Below are positions 5,650 through 40,363 of a stretch of DNA of 40,363 nt, piece after piece. Source of the DNA: Planctomycetia bacterium (GTDB lineage: Bacteria > Planctomycetota > Planctomycetia > Gemmatales > Gemmataceae); assembly GCA_005799265.1 (NCBI GenBank), contig SYHD01000162.1, positions 1-40,363 on the forward strand, in the 5' to 3' direction. The notes under the pieces are model-generated. The model saw only the letters and a program-made list of their open reading frames with translations. It was not told where the DNA came from and did no database searches. The position numbers and the translations under genes are program-made. Position 1 is the stretch's first letter. Every line of letters begins with the position of its first letter.

Positions 5650-6013
5650 ACGCTCTCTCGGTGGGATGGAAAACTGACGGCTCCTCAAGTATCGGCCAAT
5701 CGGCCCACGCGTCGGCAACGATTCTCCCGTGCCTGCTCGCTCAGTGACGGGAAGCTACGGAGGCTATGAGGAGCAGCGAGCGGGGAGAAAGTGACGGAGC
5801 CACAAACCACACGATTTCAATCGTATGCCAGGTGGAATGGCATAAATTCCATTTTGTGTAGAAAAAATCAATAATTCATTTGCAAATGAGCAAAAGCTTA
5901 CCTATACTCGATTGAGCAGTTATTCTAATTTTAATGAGTTGCACCCAAGGATTTAATTCGGGAAGTTCCTCGCCCCTTTTTTTTATTTATTTTCTTATTT
6001 AAGGGGATCGGTC
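5650..6013. other. AT-rich intergenic region upstream of the DUF1559 gene
   Basis: From about 5810 the base composition turns AT-rich, unlike the surrounding genes. It carries the promoter candidate at 5880-5908 and a T-rich tract (5977-6000) just before the ribosome binding site AAGGGG. The same kind of AT-rich leader precedes the second DUF1559 gene. The left part (5650-5810) should hold the promoter of the divergent S8 gene, but I see no clear boxes there. Confidence 0.6.
5880..5908 (+). promoter_or_regulatory. sigma-70-like promoter for the DUF1559 gene
   Basis: TTGCAA (5880-5885), a 17-base spacer, then TATACT (5903-5908), in an AT-rich setting. This predicts a 5' leader of about 100 bases. 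The second DUF1559 gene has TTGCAA at 38061 with a weaker -10 box at about the same distance from its start. Confidence 0.5.
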
Positions 6014-6784
6014 ATGAGACAGAAAGGACGCAAGCGACGCCACGCATTCACGCTGATTGAGTTGTTGGTGGTCATCGCCATCATCGCAATTCTCATCAGT
6101 TTGCTCGTGCCGGCGGTTCAGAAAGTGCGTGAATCTGCGGCGCGCGTGCAAACCAGCAACAACCTGAAGAACATCTGCCTGGCCTTTCATGGCTACTCCG
6201 ATACCTACAAGAGCCTTCCGTTTCCGGGGGATTTGACTCCTGTAGCTTCCAAAGAAGAAACGGGAGGTTGGGGATACCAGATCACGCCGTTTATCAGTCA
6301 ACAACCCATATTCGATGCGCCGCGTAGCAACGTTTCTATCGCAGTCTTGATGTGCCCCGGACGCGGTCGATCAGCTGCGGACTTCAATTCCGATTTCACC
6401 CTCAATGGCTCGCTGTACACAGGGTATTCGGGAACTTCGATTCCAAACCCTCGAATTACGATGGCGAGTATCATCGACGGCACTTCCAACACGATCTTTG
6501 TTGGGGCTAATTACATAAAGACCGCTGATTATGGTCTACTTACGACACCTTATAAATTCGACACTTCTACCGTTAACTTAAGCTCTGGGAACAAAAGAGA
6601 TAGTACAGCGGCCGGCCGGCAATGGGGTGGTGTTTATTCGGAAGGTTCGTTCATGGGCATGGGTGACGGGACGGTTCGTAATTTCCCTTATAATTATAAG
6701 GGCGGTAACACTGCTGGTACACCTGATGGATCCCTCGCGAACCTGATGACCACACAAGCTAACGATATCGTGTCTCTTCCGTAA
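6014..6784 (+). CDS. DUF1559 family pseudopilin-like protein (copy 1)
   Basis: A 256-residue protein with a type II secretion/type IV pilin N-terminus: basic [10 protein letters not shown], then the prepilin peptidase site AFTLIELL, a hydrophobic helix, and [14 protein letters not shown]. The rest is the DUF1559 domain, with [24 protein letters not shown] and a C-terminal MGDGTVR motif. It is shorter than many family members. The family is hugely expanded in planctomycetes and its role is unknown, perhaps surface fibres or secreted scaffolds. The start ATG 6014 has AAGGGG upstream. The gene is monocistronic, with its own promoter and terminator, and has a paralogue at 38181-38963 with similar flanks. 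Confidence 0.9.
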
Positions 6785-6811
6785 CCGCTGCGGATCAAGA
6801 CTGAATTCCCG

Positions 6812-6846
6812 AGGACAGCATTTCCCACCAAATGCTGTCCTTTTTC
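6812..6846 (+). terminator. rho-independent terminator after DUF1559 copy 1
   Basis: AGGACAGCATT (6812-6822) pairs perfectly with AATGCTGTCCT (6831-6841), followed by TTTTT. A close relative follows the other DUF1559 gene at 38990-39023. Confidence 0.85.
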
Positions 6847-6877
6847 ATTTCCCGCGTATTTTCAAGTAGAGCCGTAT

Positions 6878-6913
6878 TTATCCCGGCGGCCAAGCAAAGC
6901 GACGTCCGCCAAG
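6878..6913 (-). pseudogene. last codons of a hinT (HIT-family) gene
   Basis: Read on the minus strand, 6913 to 6878 encodes LGGRRFAWPPG and a TAA stop, which is the conserved C-terminus of HinT-type nucleotide hydrolases. No HIT core lies upstream: the sequence beyond 6914 is unrelated. The same tail follows DUF1559 copy 2, attached there to a longer HIT fragment (39055-39345). This is therefore a remnant carried along with the DUF1559 block. Confidence 0.7.
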
Positions 6914-6990
6914 TTGGCTTATCAATCGCTTGCTTGACGCCCTCGGAAGCGCAACTATACTGCGCTCGGGCGGAAATGACACATTTGCCT

Positions 6991-7053
6991 CACTAGCCCG
7001 CAGCGCTAGCAAGGGCAACCACGGACATCCCTTGCTGGCGCTGCGGGCTAGTG
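6991..7053. repeat. intergenic palindrome, 25-bp arms
   Basis: Arms 6991-7015 and 7029-7053 pair with a single G-T position and a 13-base loop; the core is CACTAGCCCGCAGCGC. It lies between convergent genes (DUF1559 and the oxidoreductase) and could stop transcription from either side. The rest of 6914-7112 holds nothing I recognise. Confidence 0.7.
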
Positions 7054-7112
7054 AATGAGTCAATCCTGACCGCGTGCAGTATACATTGGGAAGGAATCCC
7101 TCAGGCCGCAGT

Positions 7113-20068: not shown

Positions 20069-22534
20069 ATGCGAATCATCATGATGCGACATCTTCGCTT
20101 CCTCATGTGTGCGATTTTCTTCGTATTCCCGGCCACGCTCTTTGCGCAGTCGGCGAAGACGGTCGAATTCAACCGCGACATTCGGCCCATCCTCTCGGAG
20201 AACTGCTACACCTGTCACGGGCCGGCGAAATCGACGCGCAAGGTCGATCTGCGTGTTGACACCAAGGAAGGCGCGTACACCGTGGTGACGCCGGGCAAAC
20301 CGAAGGACAGCTTGCTGTTTCAACGCATCACTTCGATCGATGTTCACGAACGCATGCCCCCGTCCAAGACAGGCAAGAAACTAAGCGAGCAGCAGATCGA
20401 GTTCGTGCGCCGCTGGATCGAGCAGGGCGCGCCGTGGCAGGAGCACTGGGCGTTCATCGCACCAAAGCGACCCGAAGTGCCCAAGGCGAAAGGCCAACGT
20501 AATCTGGCTGGTGATTGGTCCCGCAATCCGATTGACGCTTTCATTCTTGCGCGGCTGGAAAAGGAAGGCCTCCAACCATCACCGGAGGCCGATCCACGCA
20601 CGTTGATTCGGCGTGTGACGCTGGATCTGACGGGCGTGCCGCCGACGGTTGCGGAGGTCGAGACGTTCGTGAAGGATTACGCGAGCGCCAAGCCGCAAGC
20701 GGCGTATGAGGCGCTCGTCGATCGGTTGCTGGCGTCGCCTCGCTACGGCGAACGCATGGTGCTCGAATGGCTCGACGCCGCCCGCTACTCCGACACCAAC
20801 GGCTACCAGACCGACGGCACCCGCGCCATGTGGCCGTGGCGCGATTGGGTCATCGATGCGCTCAACAAGAACATGCCGTTCGATCAATTCACGATCGAGC
20901 AGATCGCCGGCGACATGCTGCCGAAACCGACGATTCCGCAAAAGATCGCGACCGGCTTCCATCGCAATCACATGCTCAACGGCGAAGGCGGCCGCATCGC
21001 CGAGGAGTCGCGCGTCGATTATGTCGTCGATCGCGTCGATACCACCGGGGCCGTCTGGCTTGGCCTGACCGTCGGTTGTGCGCGTTGCCATGAGCACAAG
21101 TACGATCCGATCTCGCAGAAGGAGTACTACCAGCTCTACGCCTATTGGAACAGCATCGCCGAGGTAGGCGGCGTCGATCGCCGCAATGGCACGGGAGCAC
21201 CGATTTTGGAATTGGCGACCGACGAACAGAAGGAGAAAGTCGCCAAGATTGAGAAAATCGTCAATGATTTGCAATCTTCGTTTAGCGCGCGCGAAAAAAT
21301 CATCCTCGACGAACTCAAACAGAAGGTGAAGACGATCCCAGACAAGAAGTCGCCCGATTATGCCAAGCTGCTGGCGAGCCATCCGCAGAACAAGGACTTG
21401 CAAAAACTGCAGACCGCTCTCGACGCCGAGAAGAAGATCCTGACGGCCGCGAAGAACAACGTCATCATCACGATGATCATGGAAGAACGTAAGGACCCGC
21501 GCGAGACCTTCGTGCTCGAACGCGGCATCTACAACAAGTACGGCGCCAAGGTGAAAGCGGACATCCCGAAGGCCCTGCCGCCGTTGCCCAAGGACGTGCC
21601 GAACAACCGCCTCGGCCTGGCGAAGTGGCTCGTCGCGAAGGACAACCCGCTGACGGCGCGCGTTGCTGTCAATCGACTCTGGCAGCAATACTTCGGCATC
21701 GGCCTGGTCAAAACGTCGGAGGACTTCGGCGTCCAGGGCGAATTGCCGAGCCATCCGGAGTTGCTGGATTGGCTGGCCGTCGAATTCGCGCAACAATGGA
21801 ATTTGAAAGCACTGCATCGTTTGATCGTCACCAGTGCGACTTACCGCCAAAGCGCCAAGGTGACGCCCGCGACGCTCGAACGCGATCCCGACAATCGTCT
21901 GCTCTCGCACAGCCCGCGTCTTCGGCTCAGCCCATTTCAATTGCGTGATCAGGCTCTGACCTTGAGCGGTCTGCTCGTCGAAAAGATCGGCGGCGCGCCG
22001 GTGAGGCCGTATCAACCGCCCGGCCTGTGGGAGGATTTTAGCTTCAACCAGATCAAGTACGTGCAGGACAAAGGCGACAAGCTCTATCGCCGGAGCCTCT
22101 ATACCTTTTGGCGTCGCTCGATCGGTCCGCCGAACATGTTCGACACGTCGTCGCGCCAGGTCTGCACGGTCAAGCAATCGCGCACGAACACGCCGCTGCA
22201 CGCGATGATCCTCTTGAACGACGTAACATTCGTCGAGGCGTCGCGCGTCTGGGCCGAGCGCCTCATGAAGGCCGAAAAGTCGCCCGGTCCCCGTTTAGCG
22301 CTCGCATGGAGCCAGGCCACGGCCCGTCCTCCATCTCCGACCGAGCAAAAGGTGTTGCTCGCCGGCTATCAGCGCGTGCTCAAGCAATATCAGTCGGACA
22401 AGGCCGCCGCCGAGAAGCTCGTCAGCGCCGGCGAATGGCCGCGCGACAAGTCGCTCGATGTCGCCGAACACGCGGCGCTGGCGGCGATGTTGAACATGAT
22501 CCTGAATCTGGATGAGGTGATGACGAAGGAATAG
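20069..22534 (+). CDS. PSCyt1/DUF1549/DUF1553 protein (PSD1 family), copy 1
   Basis: An 821-residue exported planctomycete protein. The signal peptide (about 1-27) is followed by the planctomycete cytochrome c domain with a haem motif CYTCH (46-50), then DUF1549 (about 145-355) and DUF1553 (about 510-800). A second CxxCH occurs in CARCHEHKYDPIS. DUF1553 has NPLTARVAVNRLWQQYFG and GELPSHPELLDWLA. ATG 20069 is the first of three close ATGs and has no strong ribosome binding site. The protein normally pairs with a DUF1501 gene, here 23388-24827, but a two-gene module lies between them. Its last 69 bases are duplicated at 23249-23317. Function is unknown; a role in polysaccharide degradation or surface electron transfer has been proposed for the family. 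Confidence 0.9.
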   Translation: MRIIMMRHLRFLMCAIFFVFPATLFAQSAKTVEFNRDIRPILSENCYTCHGPAKSTRKVDLRVDTKEGAYTVVTPGKPKDSLLFQRITSIDVHERMPPSKTGKKLSEQQIEFVRRWIEQGAPWQEHWAFIAPKRPEVPKAKGQRNLAGDWSRNPIDAFILARLEKEGLQPSPEADPRTLIRRVTLDLTGVPPTVAEVETFVKDYASAKPQAAYEALVDRLLASPRYGERMVLEWLDAARYSDTNGYQTDGTRAMWPWRDWVIDALNKNMPFDQFTIEQIAGDMLPKPTIPQKIATGFHRNHMLNGEGGRIAEESRVDYVVDRVDTTGAVWLGLTVGCARCHEHKYDPISQKEYYQLYAYWNSIAEVGGVDRRNGTGAPILELATDEQKEKVAKIEKIVNDLQSSFSAREKIILDELKQKVKTIPDKKSPDYAKLLASHPQNKDLQKLQTALDAEKKILTAAKNNVIITMIMEERKDPRETFVLERGIYNKYGAKVKADIPKALPPLPKDVPNNRLGLAKWLVAKDNPLTARVAVNRLWQQYFGIGLVKTSEDFGVQGELPSHPELLDWLAVEFAQQWNLKALHRLIVTSATYRQSAKVTPATLERDPDNRLLSHSPRLRLSPFQLRDQALTLSGLLVEKIGGAPVRPYQPPGLWEDFSFNQIKYVQDKGDKLYRRSLYTFWRRSIGPPNMFDTSSRQVCTVKQSRTNTPLHAMILLNDVTFVEASRVWAERLMKAEKSPGPRLALAWSQATARPPSPTEQKVLLAGYQRVLKQYQSDKAAAEKLVSAGEWPRDKSLDVAEHAALAAMLNMILNLDEVMTKE
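22466..22534. repeat. direct repeat, left copy (PSD1 3' end)
   Basis: The last 69 bases of the PSD1 gene, including its stop, match 23249-23317 with four differences. The two copies flank the nucleotidyltransferase module exactly. Confidence 0.85.
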
Positions 22535-22553
22535 GCTGCGGAAAGGCCCAATC

Positions 22554-22997
22554 GTGATACCTGAATTCAACGACATTGGCGATTTGCCAATCGGGATCCA
22601 TTCGGCCACGTTGCGGGAGGTCATCGAGCGATTCGGCAAGGACTCCGCGCAACGCCAGATCGTCGCACAGCGGCTTGAGCGGATTTATCACCTGGTACTG
22701 CAAACGGGCCATCTGTCGCGGTTGCTCGTGTTTGGCTCCTTCGTCACCAGCAAAGTGGAACCGAACGACGTGGATGTTGTTATCATCATGGATGACGACT
22801 TCGTTGCGGACCCGTTCAGCGGCGACACGAGGCTGCTTTTCGACCATGCGGTTTCCCAAGCGCACTTTGGCGCCAGCATCTTCTGGGTGCGGCAATTCGC
22901 GGCATTGGGCGATCCGAAAACGTTCGTCGAAGATTGGCAGATCAAACGCGACGGCACTCGTCGCGGCATCGTCGAGGTTATCCCGGAGGCAATATGA
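22554..22997 (+). CDS. nucleotidyltransferase-fold protein, DUF6932-like
   Basis: A 147-residue protein starting at GTG 22554 behind GGAAAGG. The segment LLVFGSFVTSKVEPNDVDVVIIMDD (57-82) carries the nucleotidyltransferase signature: GS (61-62) and then DVD with Asp72 and Asp74. Such minimal nucleotidyltransferases are often the antitoxin or toxin half of toxin-antitoxin or abortive-infection modules. The stop overlaps the start of the next gene by ATGA, so the two are translated together. I have assigned DUF6932 from memory of the sequence pattern, not from a search. The module interrupts a PSD1/DUF1501 pair. Confidence 0.75.
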   Translation: MIPEFNDIGDLPIGIHSATLREVIERFGKDSAQRQIVAQRLERIYHLVLQTGHLSRLLVFGSFVTSKVEPNDVDVVIIMDDDFVADPFSGDTRLLFDHAVSQAHFGASIFWVRQFAALGDPKTFVEDWQIKRDGTRRGIVEVIPEAI

Positions 22998-23200
22998 TTC
23001 AGAACGACATTGAACTGCAAACGACTTTGGAGCGCATTGCGCGATTCCAACAACAGGTCGTGCATCTGCGCAAGGTCGAAACCAATCCGACCAACTACCG
23101 TCTTTCCGCGTCGGGATTTCTCGCGGAGATCGACCGCATGCAGCTCGATGTGCGCGAATACCTGACGTTGCATCCGTCGGACTTGAAAAAAGGGGCATGA
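22994..23200 (+). CDS. small helical protein partner of the nucleotidyltransferase
   Basis: A 68-residue protein, all-helical by appearance. ATG 22994 overlaps the previous TGA (22995-22997). It has an N-terminal helix (IELQTTLERIARFQQQVVHLRKV) and a second one ending in DVREYLTLHPSD. No family is recognised with certainty. The four-base overlap and the size match an antitoxin or adaptor that must be made in a fixed ratio with its partner. Confidence 0.7.
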   Translation: MIQNDIELQTTLERIARFQQQVVHLRKVETNPTNYRLSASGFLAEIDRMQLDVREYLTLHPSDLKKGA

Positions 23201-23230
23201 CAGACAACAAATCGCGAACAGCCGTGCCAC

Positions 23231-23317
23231 ATGACGCAGGACGCAGTCGAGCACGCGGCATTGGCGGCGATGTTGAACATGATCCTGAATCTGGATGAAG
23301 TGATGACGAAGGAATAG
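23231..23317 (+). pseudogene. duplicated 3' end of a PSD1 gene
   Basis: The sequence reads MTQDAVEHAALAAMLNMILN and then LDEVMTKE before TAG. The last 69 bases match the true PSD1 end at 22466-22534; further upstream the match fades, though DAVEH against DVAEH suggests a few more homologous codons. It has no start-site features of its own. It is a remnant, not a gene. Confidence 0.85.
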
Positions 23318-23387
23318 TGCCACCATCTGACTAACCCTGAGCGCAAGCGAGGGGAAAATGTTAGCATAGTAACAAACGGACTCCCAT

Positions 23388-24827
23388 ATGCACCCCACCC
23401 TCAAACACGCCATCCATCAAACTCGCCGTCAGTTCCTCACCGGCGTTAGCGGCACCCTTGGGCTTGCGGCGCTGTCGTCGCTGCTTGGCGAAGCCCAGGG
23501 ACAACCGTCCCTGGGCGTTCAGGGATTGCCGCACTTCGCACCCAAAGCGCGCCGCGTCATCTATCTCATGCAGACGGGCGCCCCGACGCACGTCGATCTC
23601 TTCGACTACAAGCCCAACATCTATCGCTGGCGCGGCGAACTCCTGCCGCCATCCGTCCAGATGGGCCAACGGCTCACCACCATGACGCAGAATCAACGGC
23701 AGCTCGTCCTGCCCGGCATCGCGCCGTTTCGGCAGTGGGGACGCAGCGGGCAATGGATGTGCGACTTCTTGCCGCACACCGGGTCGATCGCCGACGACAT
23801 CTGCATGATCCGCTCGATGCACACCGACGCGATCAATCACGCCCCGGCCGTCACGCTCTTCCTCACCGGGGCCGAGCAGCCCGGCCGGCCGAGCATGGGG
23901 GCCTGGCTCAGCTATGGCCTGGGCAGCATGAATCGCGATCTGCCGACGTTTGTCGTCATGACCTCGCAAGACCGCGAACTCTCGTGCGGGCAGATCTTCT
24001 ACGACTACTACTGGGGCGCGGGCTTCCTGCCGTCGAGCTATCAAGGCGTCAAGCTGCGCTCCAACGGCGATCCGGTGCTTTACCTCTCCAACCCGCAGGG
24101 CGTCCCCGCGCCGGTGCGCCGCAGCCAGCTCGACGATTTGGCGGAACTCAATCGCCTTCGCCATCAAGAGGTCGGCGATCCCGAAATCCAGACGCGCATC
24201 GAGCAGTACGAGATGGCGTATCGCATGCAGACATCCGTCCCGGAGCTGACCGATTTCCGCAACGAGCCGCGCCGGATATTAGAGATGTACGGCCCCGACG
24301 TCGAACGCCGCGGCAGCTTCGCGTGGAATTGCCTGATGGCGCGGCGGATGGCGGAACGCGGCGTCCGTTTCGTCCACCTGATGCACGCCGGCTGGGACCA
24401 GCACAACAATCTGCCGACGCAGTTCGCCGTCCAGTGCCGCGATACCGATCAGCCGTCGGCCGCTCTCGTCAAGGATTTGAAGGAGCGCGGCATGCTCGAC
24501 GACACGCTGGTGATCTGGGGCGGCGAGTTCGGCCGCACCGTCTTCGTTCAAGGCGACTACACGCAGCCCCGCTTTGGCCGCGACCATCACGGCCGCTGCT
24601 TCACGATCTGGATGGCGGGCGGCGGCATCAAGGCTGGCATGAGCTACGGCCGCACGGATGACTTCTGCTACAACGTCGTCGAGAATCCGGTCAACGCCTA
24701 CGACTTCCAGGCTACGATCCTGCACCTACTCGGCATCGACCACACGCGGCTCACCTATCGCTTCCAGGGCCGGCAGTATCGCTTGACGGACGTGCATGGC
24801 GAGGTGGTGGCGCCGATTCTGGCGTGA
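23388..24827 (+). CDS. DUF1501 family protein, Tat-exported (copy 1)
   Basis: A 479-residue protein. The N-terminus holds the twin-arginine leader TRRQFLTGVSGTLGLAAL. The DUF1501 core resembles the alkaline phosphatase/sulfatase fold: VIYLMQTGAPTHVDLFD, MCDFLPHTGSIADD, GPDVERRGSF, VIWGGEFGRT, GRDHHGRCFTIWMAGGG, and the C-terminal AYDFQATILHLLGIDHTRL. Members pair with PSD1 proteins. The short segment at 23493-23516, just after the leader, is a palindrome that is translated as EAQGQPSLGVQ. The gene starts 70 bases after the PSD1 remnant. Confidence 0.92.
   Translation: MHPTLKHAIHQTRRQFLTGVSGTLGLAALSSLLGEAQGQPSLGVQGLPHFAPKARRVIYLMQTGAPTHVDLFDYKPNIYRWRGELLPPSVQMGQRLTTMTQNQRQLVLPGIAPFRQWGRSGQWMCDFLPHTGSIADDICMIRSMHTDAINHAPAVTLFLTGAEQPGRPSMGAWLSYGLGSMNRDLPTFVVMTSQDRELSCGQIFYDYYWGAGFLPSSYQGVKLRSNGDPVLYLSNPQGVPAPVRRSQLDDLAELNRLRHQEVGDPEIQTRIEQYEMAYRMQTSVPELTDFRNEPRRILEMYGPDVERRGSFAWNCLMARRMAERGVRFVHLMHAGWDQHNNLPTQFAVQCRDTDQPSAALVKDLKERGMLDDTLVIWGGEFGRTVFVQGDYTQPRFGRDHHGRCFTIWMAGGGIKAGMSYGRTDDFCYNVVENPVNAYDFQATILHLLGIDHTRLTYRFQGRQYRLTDVHGEVVAPILA
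23493..23516. repeat. translated palindrome in a DUF1501 leader
   Basis: GCCCAGGGAC (23493-23502) pairs exactly with GTCCCTGGGC (23507-23516) over four bases. It sits where the Tat leader joins the mature protein, a place tolerant of insertions. The other two DUF1501 proteins lack it. Confidence 0.65.
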
Positions 24828-37130: not shown

Positions 37131-38006
37131 ATGTTGAAAAATTTCTGCATCGCTCTGGCCTTTTTCGCCTTCCTCCAAATTGCGCCGGCGCAGGAGCCGG
37201 TCCAAAAGAAGGTGCTCATCATCGGCATCGACGGCTGCCGGCCCGACGCGCTCTTGAAGGCGAAGGCGCCGCACCTGCACGGCCTTATCAAGAACGGCGC
37301 TTTCAGCGACAAAGCCCAGACCGGCGACATGACCGCCAGCGGCAGCGGCTGGGGAAGTCTGCTGACGGGAGTTTGGCGCGAGAAGCACGGCGTCAAGGGA
37401 AACGACTTCAAGCTCTCCAATTTCGACAAGTTCCCCCACGTCCTGGCACGCATCAAGAAGGCCAAGCCGGAGAGCTTCGTCGCGTCGGTCGTCCACTGGG
37501 ATCCGATTCAGAAACTGATCGTGCGCAAGGCGGACATCACCGTCGCACACAAGACCGATCCCGAAGTCGCCAAGGTCGCGTGTCAAATTCTGGCCGAGAA
37601 GAATCCGGACTTGCTGTTCGTGCATCTTGACGACGTCGACGGCGCCGGGCACAAATTCGGCTTCGATCCCAAATTGCCGCGCTATCTGGACGCCATCGAA
37701 AAAGCGGACGCATACGTCGGCGCCATGCTCAAAGCCGTCGAAGGGCGAAAGACGTATGCGCAGGAGGATTGGCTCATTGTGGTCTCGACCGATCACGGCG
37801 GCACGGAAAAATCGCACGGCAAGAACATCCCCGAGCATCGCACGATCTTCCTCATCGTCAGCGGCAAGTCGGCAGCGCGCGGCGCCATCGAGCCAGCGCC
37901 CGGGATCGTGGACATTGTGCCGACCGTGCTGCAACATCTCGGCATTCCCGTCGATCCGCAGTGGAACCTCGACGGCAAGGCGGTCGGGCTGAAAGCCTCG
38001 GAGTGA
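37131..38006 (+). CDS. AlkP-superfamily phosphodiesterase/phosphatase
   Basis: A 291-residue exported enzyme starting at ATG 37131 behind GGGG, with a signal peptide of about 20 residues. Metal and active-site motifs of the type I phosphodiesterase/nucleotide pyrophosphatase group: IGIDGCRPDAL (Asp34), MTASGSGWGSLLTG with the nucleophile Ser or Thr (68-76), LDDVDGAGH (Asp170, His174) and VSTDHGGTEKSHG (Asp221, His222). The nucleophile motif differs from the usual T-x-P-x-x-T form. The final 113 bases are duplicated at 39659-39771. It follows the DUF1501 gene by 25 bases and may share its transcript. Confidence 0.87.
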   Translation: MLKNFCIALAFFAFLQIAPAQEPVQKKVLIIGIDGCRPDALLKAKAPHLHGLIKNGAFSDKAQTGDMTASGSGWGSLLTGVWREKHGVKGNDFKLSNFDKFPHVLARIKKAKPESFVASVVHWDPIQKLIVRKADITVAHKTDPEVAKVACQILAEKNPDLLFVHLDDVDGAGHKFGFDPKLPRYLDAIEKADAYVGAMLKAVEGRKTYAQEDWLIVVSTDHGGTEKSHGKNIPEHRTIFLIVSGKSAARGAIEPAPGIVDIVPTVLQHLGIPVDPQWNLDGKAVGLKASE

Positions 38007-38060
38007 TTAACAGTTGATCCACATATCCACCGGACTTGCGCATTTTTTCCAAAAATTCAC

Positions 38061-38090
38061 TTGCAAATTGGGTGGAACCTGTCGTACATT
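38061..38090 (+). promoter_or_regulatory. candidate promoter for DUF1559 copy 2
   Basis: TTGCAA (38061-38066), 18 bases, then TACATT (38085-38090), in an AT-rich stretch. The -35-like box is identical to that of copy 1 (5880), while the -10-like box is poorer. Confidence 0.35.
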
Positions 38091-38180
38091 TAATGGCGAA
38101 TTTTTAATTTTCTGTTGGGCGAAGGTAAGAGGAGAATTTCCCCGTCGTTTTTTCTTTCCTTTTTTTTTAGGAGATCGCTC

Positions 38181-38963
38181 ATGAGCCCTAAAGTCCTGAA
38201 GGGTCGCCAGGCGTTTACGCTGATCGAATTGCTGGTGGTTATCGCCATCATCGCCGTTCTCATCGCTTTGCTTGTGCCTGCGGTTCAGAAAGTGCGTGAA
38301 GCGGCAGCGCGCACGCAAGCCTCCAACAACCTGAAAAACATCGGCCTCGCTTTCCACAGCTATCACGACGTCGTCCTTTGCCTCCCGTGGCAAGGAGCCG
38401 TCGCCCCAGCTAGCGCAAACCCAGAAAACGGCGGTTGGGGATACCAGATCTCGCCATATATCGATCAACAAACTGTTTTCCTAAACTCAAATACCACCGC
38501 CCCAGCCGTAGCGGTTGCTGCCTTTTTGTGCCCTGCACGCGGCCGCCTTGGTGTGGTTGGTGGTGTAGGTTATAATACCGATTTTGCCTACAACTGTGGG
38601 CTCCAGGCTGTTGGAACCAACATTAGCGCAACCCCCGGTACCATCAACCCCAGAACAGTCTTGACCGACATTCGGGACGGCACTTCCAACACACTTTTTG
38701 TCGGCTACAGAAACATTCAAACCAGTGCCTATGGTACCATTACTGGCAATTATTCTCATGGCACCACAGCAGTGGTGAGCATCAACAGCCACGCCAGAGA
38801 CAGCACTGTGGCCACCAACGGATGGGGTTCTCCCTTCGACGTTTCGATGCAATGCATGGGTGATGCAACGGTTCGTTCTTTCTCGTACAACTATACGGGC
38901 GCCGGTCCTGGCTTGAACAACTTGATGACCAAACATGGTTCTGATTCCGTGAATCTGCCGTGA
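38181..38963 (+). CDS. DUF1559 family pseudopilin-like protein (copy 2)
   Basis: A 260-residue paralogue of 6014-6784. The pseudopilin leader ([10 protein letters not shown], then [20 protein letters not shown] and [14 protein letters not shown]) is nearly the same, while the rest is more divergent. DUF1559 motifs: [23 protein letters not shown] and [13 protein letters not shown] 38181 is preceded by AGGAG. The flanks are also homologous to those of copy 1: AT-rich leader, terminator, and hinT tail. It lies between the intact AlkP gene and the duplicated AlkP 3' end. Confidence 0.9.
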
Positions 38964-38989
38964 TGGTTGCTGATTAGCTTGATGTCCTC

Positions 38990-39023
38990 AGGGCAGCATT
39001 CTCCACCGAGTGCTGTCCTTTTT
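38990..39023 (+). terminator. rho-independent terminator after DUF1559 copy 2
   Basis: Arms 38990-39000 and 39009-39019 pair with two G-T positions, followed by a T-run. It is the homologue of the terminator at 6812-6846. Confidence 0.8.
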
Positions 39024-39054
39024 CATTTTCTGTGTGTCTTGAACAATGCCGTAT

Positions 39055-39345
39055 TTATCCCGGCGGACAGGCAAAACGACGTCCGCCAAGTAAATGGAAA
39101 TGCAAGTGCGGCACGACCTGCCCGCCGCCGTCCTTACAGTTGATGACGATGCGACACCCGTCCTCCAACTGCAGATGTTGCGCCAGTTTGACCGCAATCA
39201 CATGCAGATGCCCGATGAGTTCGCTATCCGCAGCCGTGATGCCGGCATGCGTCGAAATGACTTTGATGAGCACATGGGTCGGCACCTGCGGCTTGATGTC
39301 GCGGATCGGTAGGCAGAGTTCGTCCTCATATCGGCTGGTAGGCGT
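39055..39345 (-). pseudogene. 5'-truncated hinT (HIT family)
   Basis: On the minus strand the frame encodes RYEDELCLPIRDIKPQVPTH, VLIKVISTHAGITAADSELI, then DGCRIVINCKDGGGQVVPHL and HFHLLGGRRFACPPG, stopping at 39055. The HIT triad HLHFH and the LGGRR tail are clear, but the N-terminal quarter with the CIFC metal site is missing, and WPPG has become CPPG. Upstream, 39346 onward, an ISKra4 fragment begins. It is convergent to DUF1559 copy 2, as is the hinT tail at 6878. Confidence 0.8.
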
Positions 39346-39369
39346 CTTTATTGTTGGTAGAGCGCCTGT

Positions 39370-39658
39370 TCACTCGTTAATTTTTCGCCGCCAGAACAGG
39401 TGCCACTGGGAGCGTTCGCTTTTGTAGAGGGGCCCGCATGTGGCACACGTTGTCCGTGCCCGGTTCACGCCAACGCATGCCGGCCAACCTGAGGCGTTGC
39501 GCCACCACCGTTTTGCACGCCGACTCCACCGAACCCGAACCGATCAGCCAGCCCTTGGCCAAGTAGGTCGGGTAATCCATGCGCTCCACATGATTGCGGA
39601 GATAGCCGAGCACCTCGGCATGCTTGGCACGCAACGCGGGCCGACGTTCCGGCAACGG
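39370..39658 (-). pseudogene. 3' fragment of an ISKra4-family transposase, frameshifted
   Basis: The minus-strand reading from about 39658 gives RRPALRAKHAEVLGYLRNHV and then ERMDYPTYLAKGWLIGSGSV, ESACKTVVAQRLRLAGMRW, the C-terminal signature of ISKra4 transposases (IGSGSVES, GMRW). Near 39422-39430 the frame shifts: the natural ending SERSQWHLFWRRKINE, stopping at 39370, is in another frame. The 5' part of the gene is absent, being replaced at about 39659 by the duplicated AlkP 3' end. Confidence 0.8.
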
Positions 39659-39771
39659 CAGCGCCCGGGATCGTGGACGTTGTGCCGACCGTGCTGCAAC
39701 ATCTCGGCATTCCCGTCGATCCGCAGTGGAACCTCGACGGCAAGGCGGTCGGGCTGAAGGCGTCGGAATGA
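39659..39771 (+). pseudogene. duplicated 3' end of the AlkP-superfamily gene
   Basis: 113 bases match 37894-38006 with four differences; homology continues past the stop to about 39800 (compare to about 38035). It encodes PGIVDVVPTVLQHLGIPVDP and the natural end, but has no upstream part. It is directly followed by the PPK2 gene. Confidence 0.88.
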
Positions 39772-39880
39772 TCAACGATTGATCCCCATATCCGCTCGGC
39801 TCGCCCAAAAATGATTGGCCATCCGCTTGGCGAGAAGGTAAGTTGTCACCAAGCGAGTAGCTGTCAAGAAGGAGAACAAC

Positions 39881-40363
39881 GTGGGCAAGAAAGATCGCAA
39901 GAAAGAGGGTGAGATCGACAGCGCGAACAACGAATCGGGCCGAAAGAAGCTGAAACGCCAGAAGTACGAGGAGAAGCTGGAAGAGCTGCACCTGGAGTTG
40001 GTCAAGATGCAGTACTGGCTCAAGGCGACCGGTAAGAAGCTGGTTGTCCTCTTCGAAGGGCGGGACGCGGCCGGCAAGGGGGGAGCGATCAAGTGCATCT
40101 CCGCGCCGTTCAATCCGCGCGGCAGCCAGATTGTTGCGCTCGGCACGCCGACCGCGACGGAGAAATCGCAGTGGTACTTCCAGCGTTACGTCGCGCACCT
40201 GCCCGCTGCCGGCGAGATCGTGCTGTTTGATCGGAGCTGGTACAACCGGGCGGGCATCGAGCGCGTCATGGGTTTCTGCACGACGGAGGAGTATACGGAG
40301 TTTCTACGCTCGTGCCCGGAATTCGAACGCATGCTCATTCGCTCCGGTCTCACGCTGCTGAAA
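39881..40363 (+). CDS. ppk2: polyphosphate kinase 2 (PPK2), 5' part
   Basis: 161 codons are visible and the gene continues past the right edge. It starts at GTG 39881 with AAGGAG (39869-39874) six bases upstream. PPK2 enzymes transfer phosphate between polyphosphate and nucleotides. The motifs are textbook: Walker A GRDAAGKGG (60-68), WYFQRYVAHLPAAGEIVLFD, and the Walker B/lid segment DRSWYNRAG. The N-terminal 25 residues are Lys- and Glu-rich and variable. The segment between Walker A and B fits the single-domain class I enzymes. Its upstream region contains the duplicated AlkP end. Confidence 0.93.
   Translation, partial: MGKKDRKKEGEIDSANNESGRKKLKRQKYEEKLEELHLELVKMQYWLKATGKKLVVLFEGRDAAGKGGAIKCISAPFNPRGSQIVALGTPTATEKSQWYFQRYVAHLPAAGEIVLFDRSWYNRAGIERVMGFCTTEEYTEFLRSCPEFERMLIRSGLTLLK

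Follow-up and report, generated by a model that had tools for sequence, protein, structure and literature searches.

How small toxin-antitoxin and similar modules that carry no mobility gene enter chromosomes is a long-standing question. In the right part of the DNA analyzed here (40,363 nt; the whole stretch is called the window), a short cassette lies between two copies of one gene end. A preliminary description had claimed that the 3' end of an alkaline-phosphatase-superfamily (AlkP) gene is repeated with an offset of 1765 bases, that the interval contains a DUF1559 gene together with fragments of hinT and ISKra4, and that the left copy ends an intact gene and the right copy forms a stub. 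The features of this locus, together with the window's other DUF1559 copy, are as follows.

6014..6784, plus strand: the window's other DUF1559 copy, followed by 44 nt of a hinT tail (6871-6914); none of the listed repeats is a gene end flanking it
37131..38006, plus strand: intact AlkP-superfamily (type I phosphodiesterase) gene, the target gene (PF01663 2e-24, PF01676 5e-9)
37894..38028, plus strand: left repeat copy, the terminal 113 nt of the AlkP gene and 22 nt beyond its stop (94% over 135 bp to the right copy)
38033..39330, plus strand: segment shared by other DUF1559 copies in the genome (DUF1559 gene, downstream stretch, hinT tail; 77-85% identity)
38181..38963, plus strand: DUF1559 gene with a prepilin-like N-terminus, 260 aa (PF07596 2e-21, PF07963 5e-7)
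39055..39330, minus strand: hinT-like fragment without its N-terminus, the 3' part (NF007965 positions 23-110 of 119; HIT 10-97 of 98)
39377..39655, minus strand: ISKra4 transposase fragment, 70 residues near the C-terminus (NF033572 8e-25, positions 347-416 of 422)
39659..39793, plus strand: right repeat copy, the AlkP gene-end stub (94% to the left copy)
39881..40363, plus strand: ppk2, the first gene past the stub, continuing beyond the window end (TIGR03707 1e-67)

Each part of that claim was borne out. Using blastn, 37894-38028 aligned with 39659-39793 at 94.07% identity over 135 bp (E 2e-54), and a repeat search of the window gave a wider version (37894-38042 and 39659-39807, 91% over 149 nt, spacing 1765). 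This similarity far exceeds chance. The gene at 37131-38006 matches the Pfam families Phosphodiest (2e-24), Metalloenzyme (5e-9), and Sulfatase (7e-6) and thus fits an AlkP-superfamily protein. The stub is open in frame up to a TGA, and ppk2 comes next. In frame, the two copies differ at 1, 0, and 3 sites in codon positions 1, 2, and 3, and three of the four differences are synonymous. Profile matches were obtained for all three elements of the interval.

The geometry of the locus has two known counterparts. Both sides of the insert carry a variable direct repeat of the target, of the order of 100 bp, as in insertion with long target duplication. An intact gene on one side, cargo in the middle, and a partial gene end on the other side, as left by single crossing-over of a circle, are also present. 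The locus does not have the form of a transposon with a target site duplication; fixed ends are absent (the right ends of the DUF1559 copies vary), and repeat lengths vary. Neither an integrase gene nor a core site was found in the AlkP cassette, which contains only the DUF1559 gene and the hinT and ISKra4 fragments. The AlkP-gene orthologues in G001, G002, and G006 (74-77% DNA identity) have different neighbors, and synteny comparison gave no empty AlkP-ppk2 site. A search of seven genomes of the genus with the two window loci found no donor that has the gene and the same cargo but lacks the stub.

Seven related copies of the DUF1559 unit are present in the genome. The segment 38033-39330 matches stretches on contigs C9, C229, C22, C10, and C174 at 77-85% identity, and four of the matches (C9, C22, C174, and a short piece of C229) all start at 38030-38033. 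These copies and their common start point would suit mobile DUF1559 units that themselves caused the duplication, a reading that concerns the AlkP cassette only. Against it, the similarity of the related copies extends upstream of the shared start point, and their right ends are variable. No flanking repeat was found around the copies on C9, C229, and C22; the copies on C10 and C174 lie at contig ends, and a more complete HIT gene adjoins the former. DUF1559 has 42 matches in the genome; 30 of these loci were scanned, and the AlkP locus alone is flanked by a gene-end repeat. On this basis DUF1559 was rejected as the moving agent, and it is extremely improbable that it caused the duplication.

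The preliminary description referred to a first case with the same geometry in the window. This is presumably the following locus, whose copies are 84.6% identical over 104 bp at a spacing of 783.

22431..22534, plus strand: left copy, the 3' end of a PSCyt1/PSCyt2/PSD1 gene, its last base being the end of the stop codon (PF07587 1e-92, PF07583 6e-88)
22554..22997, plus strand: cargo, DUF6932 (nucleotidyltransferase-like) gene (PF22014 3e-28)
22994..23200, plus strand: cargo, small partner ORF overlapping the DUF6932 gene, 68 aa (open frame, no Pfam match)
23214..23317, plus strand: right copy, gene-end stub ahead of DUF1501 (start 23388; PF07394 5e-150), from the repeat search and blastn

By eye, an ORF resembling the 68-aa partner also adjoins the DUF6932 genes of G002 and G006. 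Ahead of DUF1501, the DUF6932 cassettes come with different duplications: in G000 the upstream gene's 3' end is present twice, and in G002 the 5' end of DUF1501 itself. The repeat had been described as a gene 3' end; 3' ends do recur, but 5' ends are found too.

A search of 1,926,280 bp, in which several contigs were chosen because hits were on them, yielded gene-end pairs at ten places, 5' ends included. From 50 raw census pairs, those at D3, D4, C26, G006.C185, G006.C244 (two), G001.C87a (two), G001.C87b (one array), and G005.C90 were kept. Many other direct repeats of the census proved to be paralogues, coding repeats, or elements that are palindromic or dispersed, and were dropped. On a first look alone, raw pairs 20, 21, and 30-32 were set aside as likely paralogue clusters and 49 as a tandem repeat; 40-42 were set aside as a dispersed repeat. 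Repeat length ranges from 43 to 351 bp in the accepted pairs other than the AlkP pair. No clear case was seen in pieces of G001 and G005 totalling 540 kb or in 400 kb of G014 and G007, two single-contig genomes of the family.

The cargo between gene-end copies is mostly of the toxin-antitoxin type, and PIN-toxin loci are enriched for flanking repeats. At a spacing of at most 1600, 11 of 72 PIN-toxin loci were flanked, versus 2 of 400 random centers (p 3e-8); excluding the one already known, the count was 10/71 (p 2e-7). The 72 loci, out of 117 matches, consist of 30 listed loci, six of which are truncated by contig ends so that their positions are approximate, and 42 of the 51 other matches in G001 and G000. 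The set omits seven matches in stretches previously retrieved (three being the known cases C26 and, twice, G001:C87), as well as C30 and C266. The count includes L246, whose gene end is unresolved, and excludes L231 (31 bp); with L264 (1414 bp, 76%, spacing 3040) it becomes 12/72. For DUF6932, five of the 30 loci tested (of 40 matches) were flanked (p 2e-5), and without the three known beforehand the figure is 2/27 (p 0.02). In five other genomes, four of them with matches, 1 of 12 PIN loci was flanked (L307 in G016). Cases are thus seen in the window's genome, among relatives of its genus, and in two further genera of the family; one of them, L318, lies in the single-contig genome G105 of another genus. 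The host group of these cassettes consists of lake bacteria. Arrays occur in G001: some genes there bear two or three cassettes, and after every cassette the gene end appears again. Synteny at C26 gave no empty site for comparison.

The preliminary description had proposed to look for a shared integrase or end motif. None was recognized in the cassettes inspected (by eye, partly with Pfam), and the starts of the stubs vary among them. Some islands, such as e14 at icd, rebuild the 3' end of the gene they enter and leave an intact gene and a displaced stub. This classic footprint resembles the present one, and an integrase supplied in trans could be imagined to act site-specifically at gene ends. 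Several targets, however, are unrelated, both 5' and 3' ends are used, stub starts are variable, and no integrase was recognized among the ORFs of the cassettes inspected, so we consider this reading very improbable.

The differences between gene and stub bear on whether the copies were once identical. Eighteen pairs differ at 78, 55, and 143 sites in codon positions 1, 2, and 3. One half is the maximum third-position share that an in-situ duplication could yield, and the share of the full set (143/276) is not above it (p 0.29). The 18 pairs alone therefore leave local duplication with selection on the intact gene possible. In contrast, six pairs exceed 90% identity over their coding part, and of the 69 differences in these, 50 are at third positions (p 1e-4 versus one half); 31 of 48 remain so when L247 is removed (p 0.03). 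L247 (19/21) and L261 (10/13), which are among the best-preserved pairs, are strongly biased, and differences in the better-preserved pairs are mostly synonymous. The second window case has no third-position excess (5, 5, and 6 differences).

Stop codons and repeat edges add to this picture. The two copies share a stop codon in eight pairs and have different ones in five (C155, L261, L265, L267a, and L323), with ends at the same codon or one codon off. The repeat edge lies within 8 nt of the end of the stop codon in 10 of the 16 3'-end pairs; similarity runs 22-40 nt beyond the stop in four pairs (D3, c1c2, G005C90, and L307), and in the 94% pair L247 it ends sharply at the stop. Third-position differences in the better-preserved pairs, the five stop-codon mismatches, and the loss of similarity near the stop suggest that the gene ends derive from two lineages rather than from a fresh duplication; the full pair set is no proof of this.

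Insertion with long target duplication would copy about 100 bp of target at a staggered break or pair of nicks, need no homology, and leave identical copies that diverge later. The geometry and the size range of 43-351 bp agree with it, and it allows for the share of third positions observed over the 18 pairs. Identical starting copies are difficult to reconcile with the bias in L247 and L261 and with stop codons that differ in five pairs, and edges would not be expected to cluster at stop or start codons. We regard this explanation as possible but rather unlikely. Tandem duplication followed by decay, which the preliminary description had also offered, fits less well because of the synonymous differences in the better-preserved pairs and the five stop-codon mismatches, and may account for some pairs. 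Alternatively, a duplication in place may have been followed by replacement of the intact gene's end through recombination with relatives' alleles, giving allele-like copies. This would explain the synonymous differences with no foreign gene end at insertion, and it agrees with the second window case, where gene and stub both stop with TAG, a codon absent from the other eight aligned sequences. It leaves unexplained why similarity so often ends at the stop codon in copies of 90-97% identity, and we judge it improbable.

The pattern is best explained by foreign DNA entering via a common gene end, not by a dedicated jumping mechanism. Among the mechanisms proposed earlier, homologous recombination with a gene-end-bearing circular intermediate fits best, and the idea of one mechanism behind unrelated cassettes is supported by the further cases in the genome, the genus, and two other genera. 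On balance, we lean toward one-sided homologous integration at a shared gene end as the natural process that left the AlkP insert. A fragment from a close relative would have carried an AlkP-type gene end followed by the cassette of the DUF1559 gene and the hinT and ISKra4 pieces. Its ends may have been joined to form a small circle that lacked part of the gene end, and a single crossing-over inside the common AlkP gene end would then have brought this circle into the chromosome. The same product could also come from linear DNA, if one side entered by homologous recombination and the other was sealed by end joining. The intact AlkP gene would thereby have gained the donor's end and cargo, and the recipient's own end would remain as the stub ahead of ppk2. 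The same route could deliver toxin-antitoxin cassettes at many gene ends of the genus, with repeats at some genes leading to arrays. Toxin-antitoxin cargo is probably over-represented because it resists loss, and retention would then be by addiction. The sharp edge in L247 demands donor cargo that starts right at the stop, which the crossing-over model does not explain.

Beyond single insertions, host gene ends might act as common docking sequences of an integrase-free cassette system, in which addiction modules and other small cassettes, after being linked to a gene end, leave as circles and re-enter any homologous gene end of the population by ordinary recombination, building integron-like arrays with the 3' or 5' end of the host gene as separator. 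We put this forward as a doubtful extension. The gene-end loci suggest a testable route for modules without mobility genes, in which neighboring gene ends provide the homology, and such a route would explain repeated insertion at the same genes. Allele-like copies and repeat edges that fall at stop or start codons form a signature of this route that can be searched for in any set of genomes.

Integron cassette arrays are strings of unrelated cassettes, toxin-antitoxin genes included, with the repeated element attC between them. The arrays here are similar in having such strings with a repeated separator; unlike in integrons, the separator is a host gene end and not attC, and no integrase was recognized. 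Searched at the level of titles and abstract beginnings, the open literature gave no account of gene ends separating the members of toxin-antitoxin arrays.

Insertion with long target duplication was reportedly described for restriction-modification genes by Furuta et al. in 2010. As far as the available parts of the sources describe it, the likeness lies in a short addiction-type cassette between direct repeats of about 100 bp, with no transposase seen. The present loci differ in that the better-preserved copies resemble alleles of two lineages, the edges lie at stop or start codons, the cargo is DUF1559 or resembles toxin-antitoxin genes, and the cassettes build arrays. According to those parts, such insertion was found with restriction-modification genes, first in Helicobacter pylori (Nobusato et al. 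2000, via PMC3874152, PMC1643837, and PMC3031569).

Homology-facilitated illegitimate recombination also has a homologous and a non-homologous side. In the available text of PMC3240628, it usually causes a deletion of about the size of the insert, whereas here DNA is gained and the gene end is duplicated. The same portion of that source reports a duplicated part of lacZ by PCR in 56 of 60 E. coli clones (109-950 bp in the 14 sequenced) and attributes it to circular molecules, probably re-ligated, that entered by a single crossing-over. There, as here, a duplicated gene end flanks foreign DNA. As that text presents it, the E. coli system was laboratory conjugation with a plasmid carrying the host's lacZ, whereas the present loci are natural, with divergent gene ends and native cargo.

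The direct repeat of the AlkP gene end claimed in the preliminary description is real, as judged by repeat search and DNA self-comparison of the window. The left copy (37894-38028) is the end of an intact gene and the right copy (39659-39793) a stub, as described, and profile matches bear out the content reported for the cassette between them. In the genome, which spans 6.47 Mb in 372 contigs, the window is C121.

37131-38006: intact AlkP-superfamily gene; the left repeat copy is its end plus 22 nt beyond the stop
Between the copies: 1.6-kb cassette with a DUF1559 gene, a hinT-like fragment without the N-terminus, and an ISKra4 transposase fragment from near its end
39659-39793: right repeat copy, a gene-end stub upstream of ppk2

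The same geometry, first described from two cases in the window, recurs elsewhere in this genome (G000), in same-genus relatives (among them G001, G002, G005, and G006), and in two other genera of the family (G105 and G016). The loci include the following.

Window 22431-22534 and 23214-23317: second window case, a DUF6932 gene plus a small ORF, flanked by a PSD1-type gene end and its stub, with DUF1501 next
G000 C26: VapBC-like cassette (PIN, 5e-11) between two 5'-end copies of one gene, secreted-looking by eye
G001:C87: PIN cassette and a gene matching DUF4351 below threshold (6e-4)
G001:C87, array cargo: ORF pair weakly matching the Tse2 type (2e-4, below the cut-off), two ORFs for which Pfam gave no match, and a PIN gene
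G002:C81 and G006:C244: DUF6932 cassettes
G005:C90: PIN cassette
G006:C185: ParE-like toxin
G006:C244: RhuM gene

PIN loci of the genus were picked by profile search, independently of repeats, and 72 of the 117 matches were tested. A flanking repeat of at least 40 bp was present at 12 of the 72 (11 at a spacing of at most 1600), compared with 10 of 400 random centres of the genus sample (2 at that spacing). The enrichment at the shorter spacing has a Fisher p of 3e-8, or 2e-7 after removal of one previously known case. DUF6932 loci of the family were flanked in 5 of 30 cases (p 2e-5), three of them known beforehand; the new ones amount to 2 of 27 (p 0.02). Of these two, one comes from a different genus (G105, a genome in a single contig), and G016, from a third genus, has a PIN case. 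Since cases also occur in the relatives, in single-contig G105, and in G016, assembly error in a single MAG cannot account for the recurrence across genomes and genera. Contigs of G001 and G005 (540 kb) and the single-contig family genomes G014 and G007 (400 kb searched) showed no clear cases, in a base-pair census biased by several contigs chosen because they held matches.

A DNA search of the same genome found related DUF1559 units on C9, C229, C22, C10, and C174 and at window 5979-6914. Four matches (C9, C22, C174, and a short C229 piece) start at 38030-38033, directly past the left repeat. In the alignment, likeness continues upstream of this point, far in C9, C22, and C174 and for about 70 bp in C229. 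The right ends vary: in window coordinates, likeness stops short of hinT for C22, at 39091 for the other window copy, at 39209 for C229, and at 39326 for C9. The top HIT match in the genome (model positions 2-97 of 98) adjoins the DUF1559 copy on C10, and the prepilin-type motif is absent from the fetched flanks of hinT homologues in G006, G002, and G004. Copying of the unit apparently took along hinT stretches of differing length, and its ends are not fixed. Of the 42 DUF1559 matches, 30 loci were scanned, and only the AlkP-end one is repeat-flanked. From these two observations, the duplication is ascribed to the entry route of the piece and not to DUF1559. A related ISKra4 piece on C9 (L051 10325-10522), 76% identical to window 39391-39589, precedes the DUF1559 unit there, but in the window the ISKra4 piece follows the unit.

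If both repeat copies derived from one allele, the stub would drift freely and the gene would change mostly synonymously, giving a third-position share of at most about half. In 18 pairs, in-frame differences at codon positions 1/2/3 numbered 78/55/143, a third-position share above one third (p 2e-10) and not above one half (p 0.29). Six pairs have a coding-part identity above 90% and so had the least time for decay; in this subset, which was set apart once the counts had been seen, 50 of 69 differences are at third positions (p 1e-4), or 31 of 48 without L247 (p 0.03). The stop lies at the same codon in the gene frame in 10 of 16 3'-end stubs, one of which (G001C87a_rpn) has internal stops too. 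The stop codon is the same in eight pairs and differs in five: C155, L261, L265 (one codon off), L267a, and L323. Internal stops or gaps in older stubs (G001C87a_rpn and L262c) indicate that drift follows insertion.

The repeat edge falls within 8 nt of the stop-codon end in 10 of 16 3'-end pairs; in the other six it lies 11-39 nt past that point or stops 15-16 nt before it. Two of three 5'-end repeats in the genus start 1 nt before the start codon, and the G105 case starts 26 nt before it. Such a loss of similarity is what homologous genes from two lineages show, and random duplication need not produce it. The edge at the stop codon is sharp in some high-identity pairs, for which the model proposed below offered no explanation.

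Arrays are also present. In G001:C87, a DUF1592/1588/1585 gene has its 3' end repeated three more times downstream, making four copies with cargo between each. In copies 3 and 4, likeness to the gene ceases at the stop codon or a few bases from it, and copies 1 and 2 have a further 23 nt in common. Smaller arrays with at least two stubs occur in G001:C95, C129, and C169. At 5032-6844 of L202 (G001:C87:28000-47999), adjoining the toxin-antitoxin array, ORFs that by eye resemble retropepsin-type proteases are interspersed with a dispersed 130-bp repeat in three copies.

In the second window case, the third-position excess is absent and gene and stub have a TAG stop in common. DUF6932 cassettes lie upstream of DUF1501 (identified in relatives by similarity to the window gene) in G000 and G002 alike, but the duplicated end differs, being the 3' end of the upstream gene in G000 and the 5' end of DUF1501 in G002, whose PSD1 gene sits on a separate contig. 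Entry via either neighbour gene would yield this difference. Comparison of window 22431-23400 with G001:C87, G006:C243, G004:C100, G002:C81, G003:C233, and G005:C90 marks the stretch upstream of DUF1501 as a repeated insertion place in the genus, with neighbours that differ between the genomes and with PSD1-end stubs in four of them. To the eye, the final 50 bp of the G006 stub are nearer the gene end of G001 than that of G006 itself. In L151 (G004:C100, reverse complement 162-566), the gene-end stub is overlapped by an ORF that, again by eye, resembles a REP-associated tyrosine transposase. A 26-bp sequence right after the second-case stub (window 23330-23355) has exact copies at several other G000 places, sometimes as inverted neighbours.

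Other repeats occur in the genome. Window 6955-7093 (139 bp, 98% identical to C229:4078-4215, about 72% self-complementary) resembles a small mobile element of palindromic type. Short palindromic repeats at C229:7794-7847, C67:16116-16177, and C334:17270-17318 (15, 28, and 14 matches in the sample) are dispersed in G000 as part of the direct-repeat background.

The pattern is consistent with a foreign piece entering through a shared gene end. The piece would consist of a gene end plus cargo, and recombination at the shared end would bring it in; a donor, a circular form, a crossing-over, and addiction-based retention are its proposed elements. No donor was found among the genus genomes searched with the two window loci, and no empty site in comparison with the relatives' loci. 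An E. coli study (PMC3240628) describes conjugation of a non-replicating plasmid whose cleavage left linear DNA homologous to lacZ at one of its ends. A PCR product of the duplicated lacZ part was obtained from 56 of 60 Lac-minus clones, and this part measured 109-950 bp in 14 sequenced clones. Its authors concluded that a single crossing-over had taken place with a circular molecule in which part of the lacZ end was missing and which had probably formed after degradation and re-ligation.

Insertion with long target duplication, first known from restriction-modification genes of Helicobacter pylori (Nobusato et al. 2000, Furuta et al. 2010), is reported with the same geometry as these cassettes. 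The cassettes differ from it in their allele-like copies, codon-end edges, toxin-antitoxin and DUF1559 cargo, and arrays. These features set them apart as a variant and suggest that the route is homology-based.
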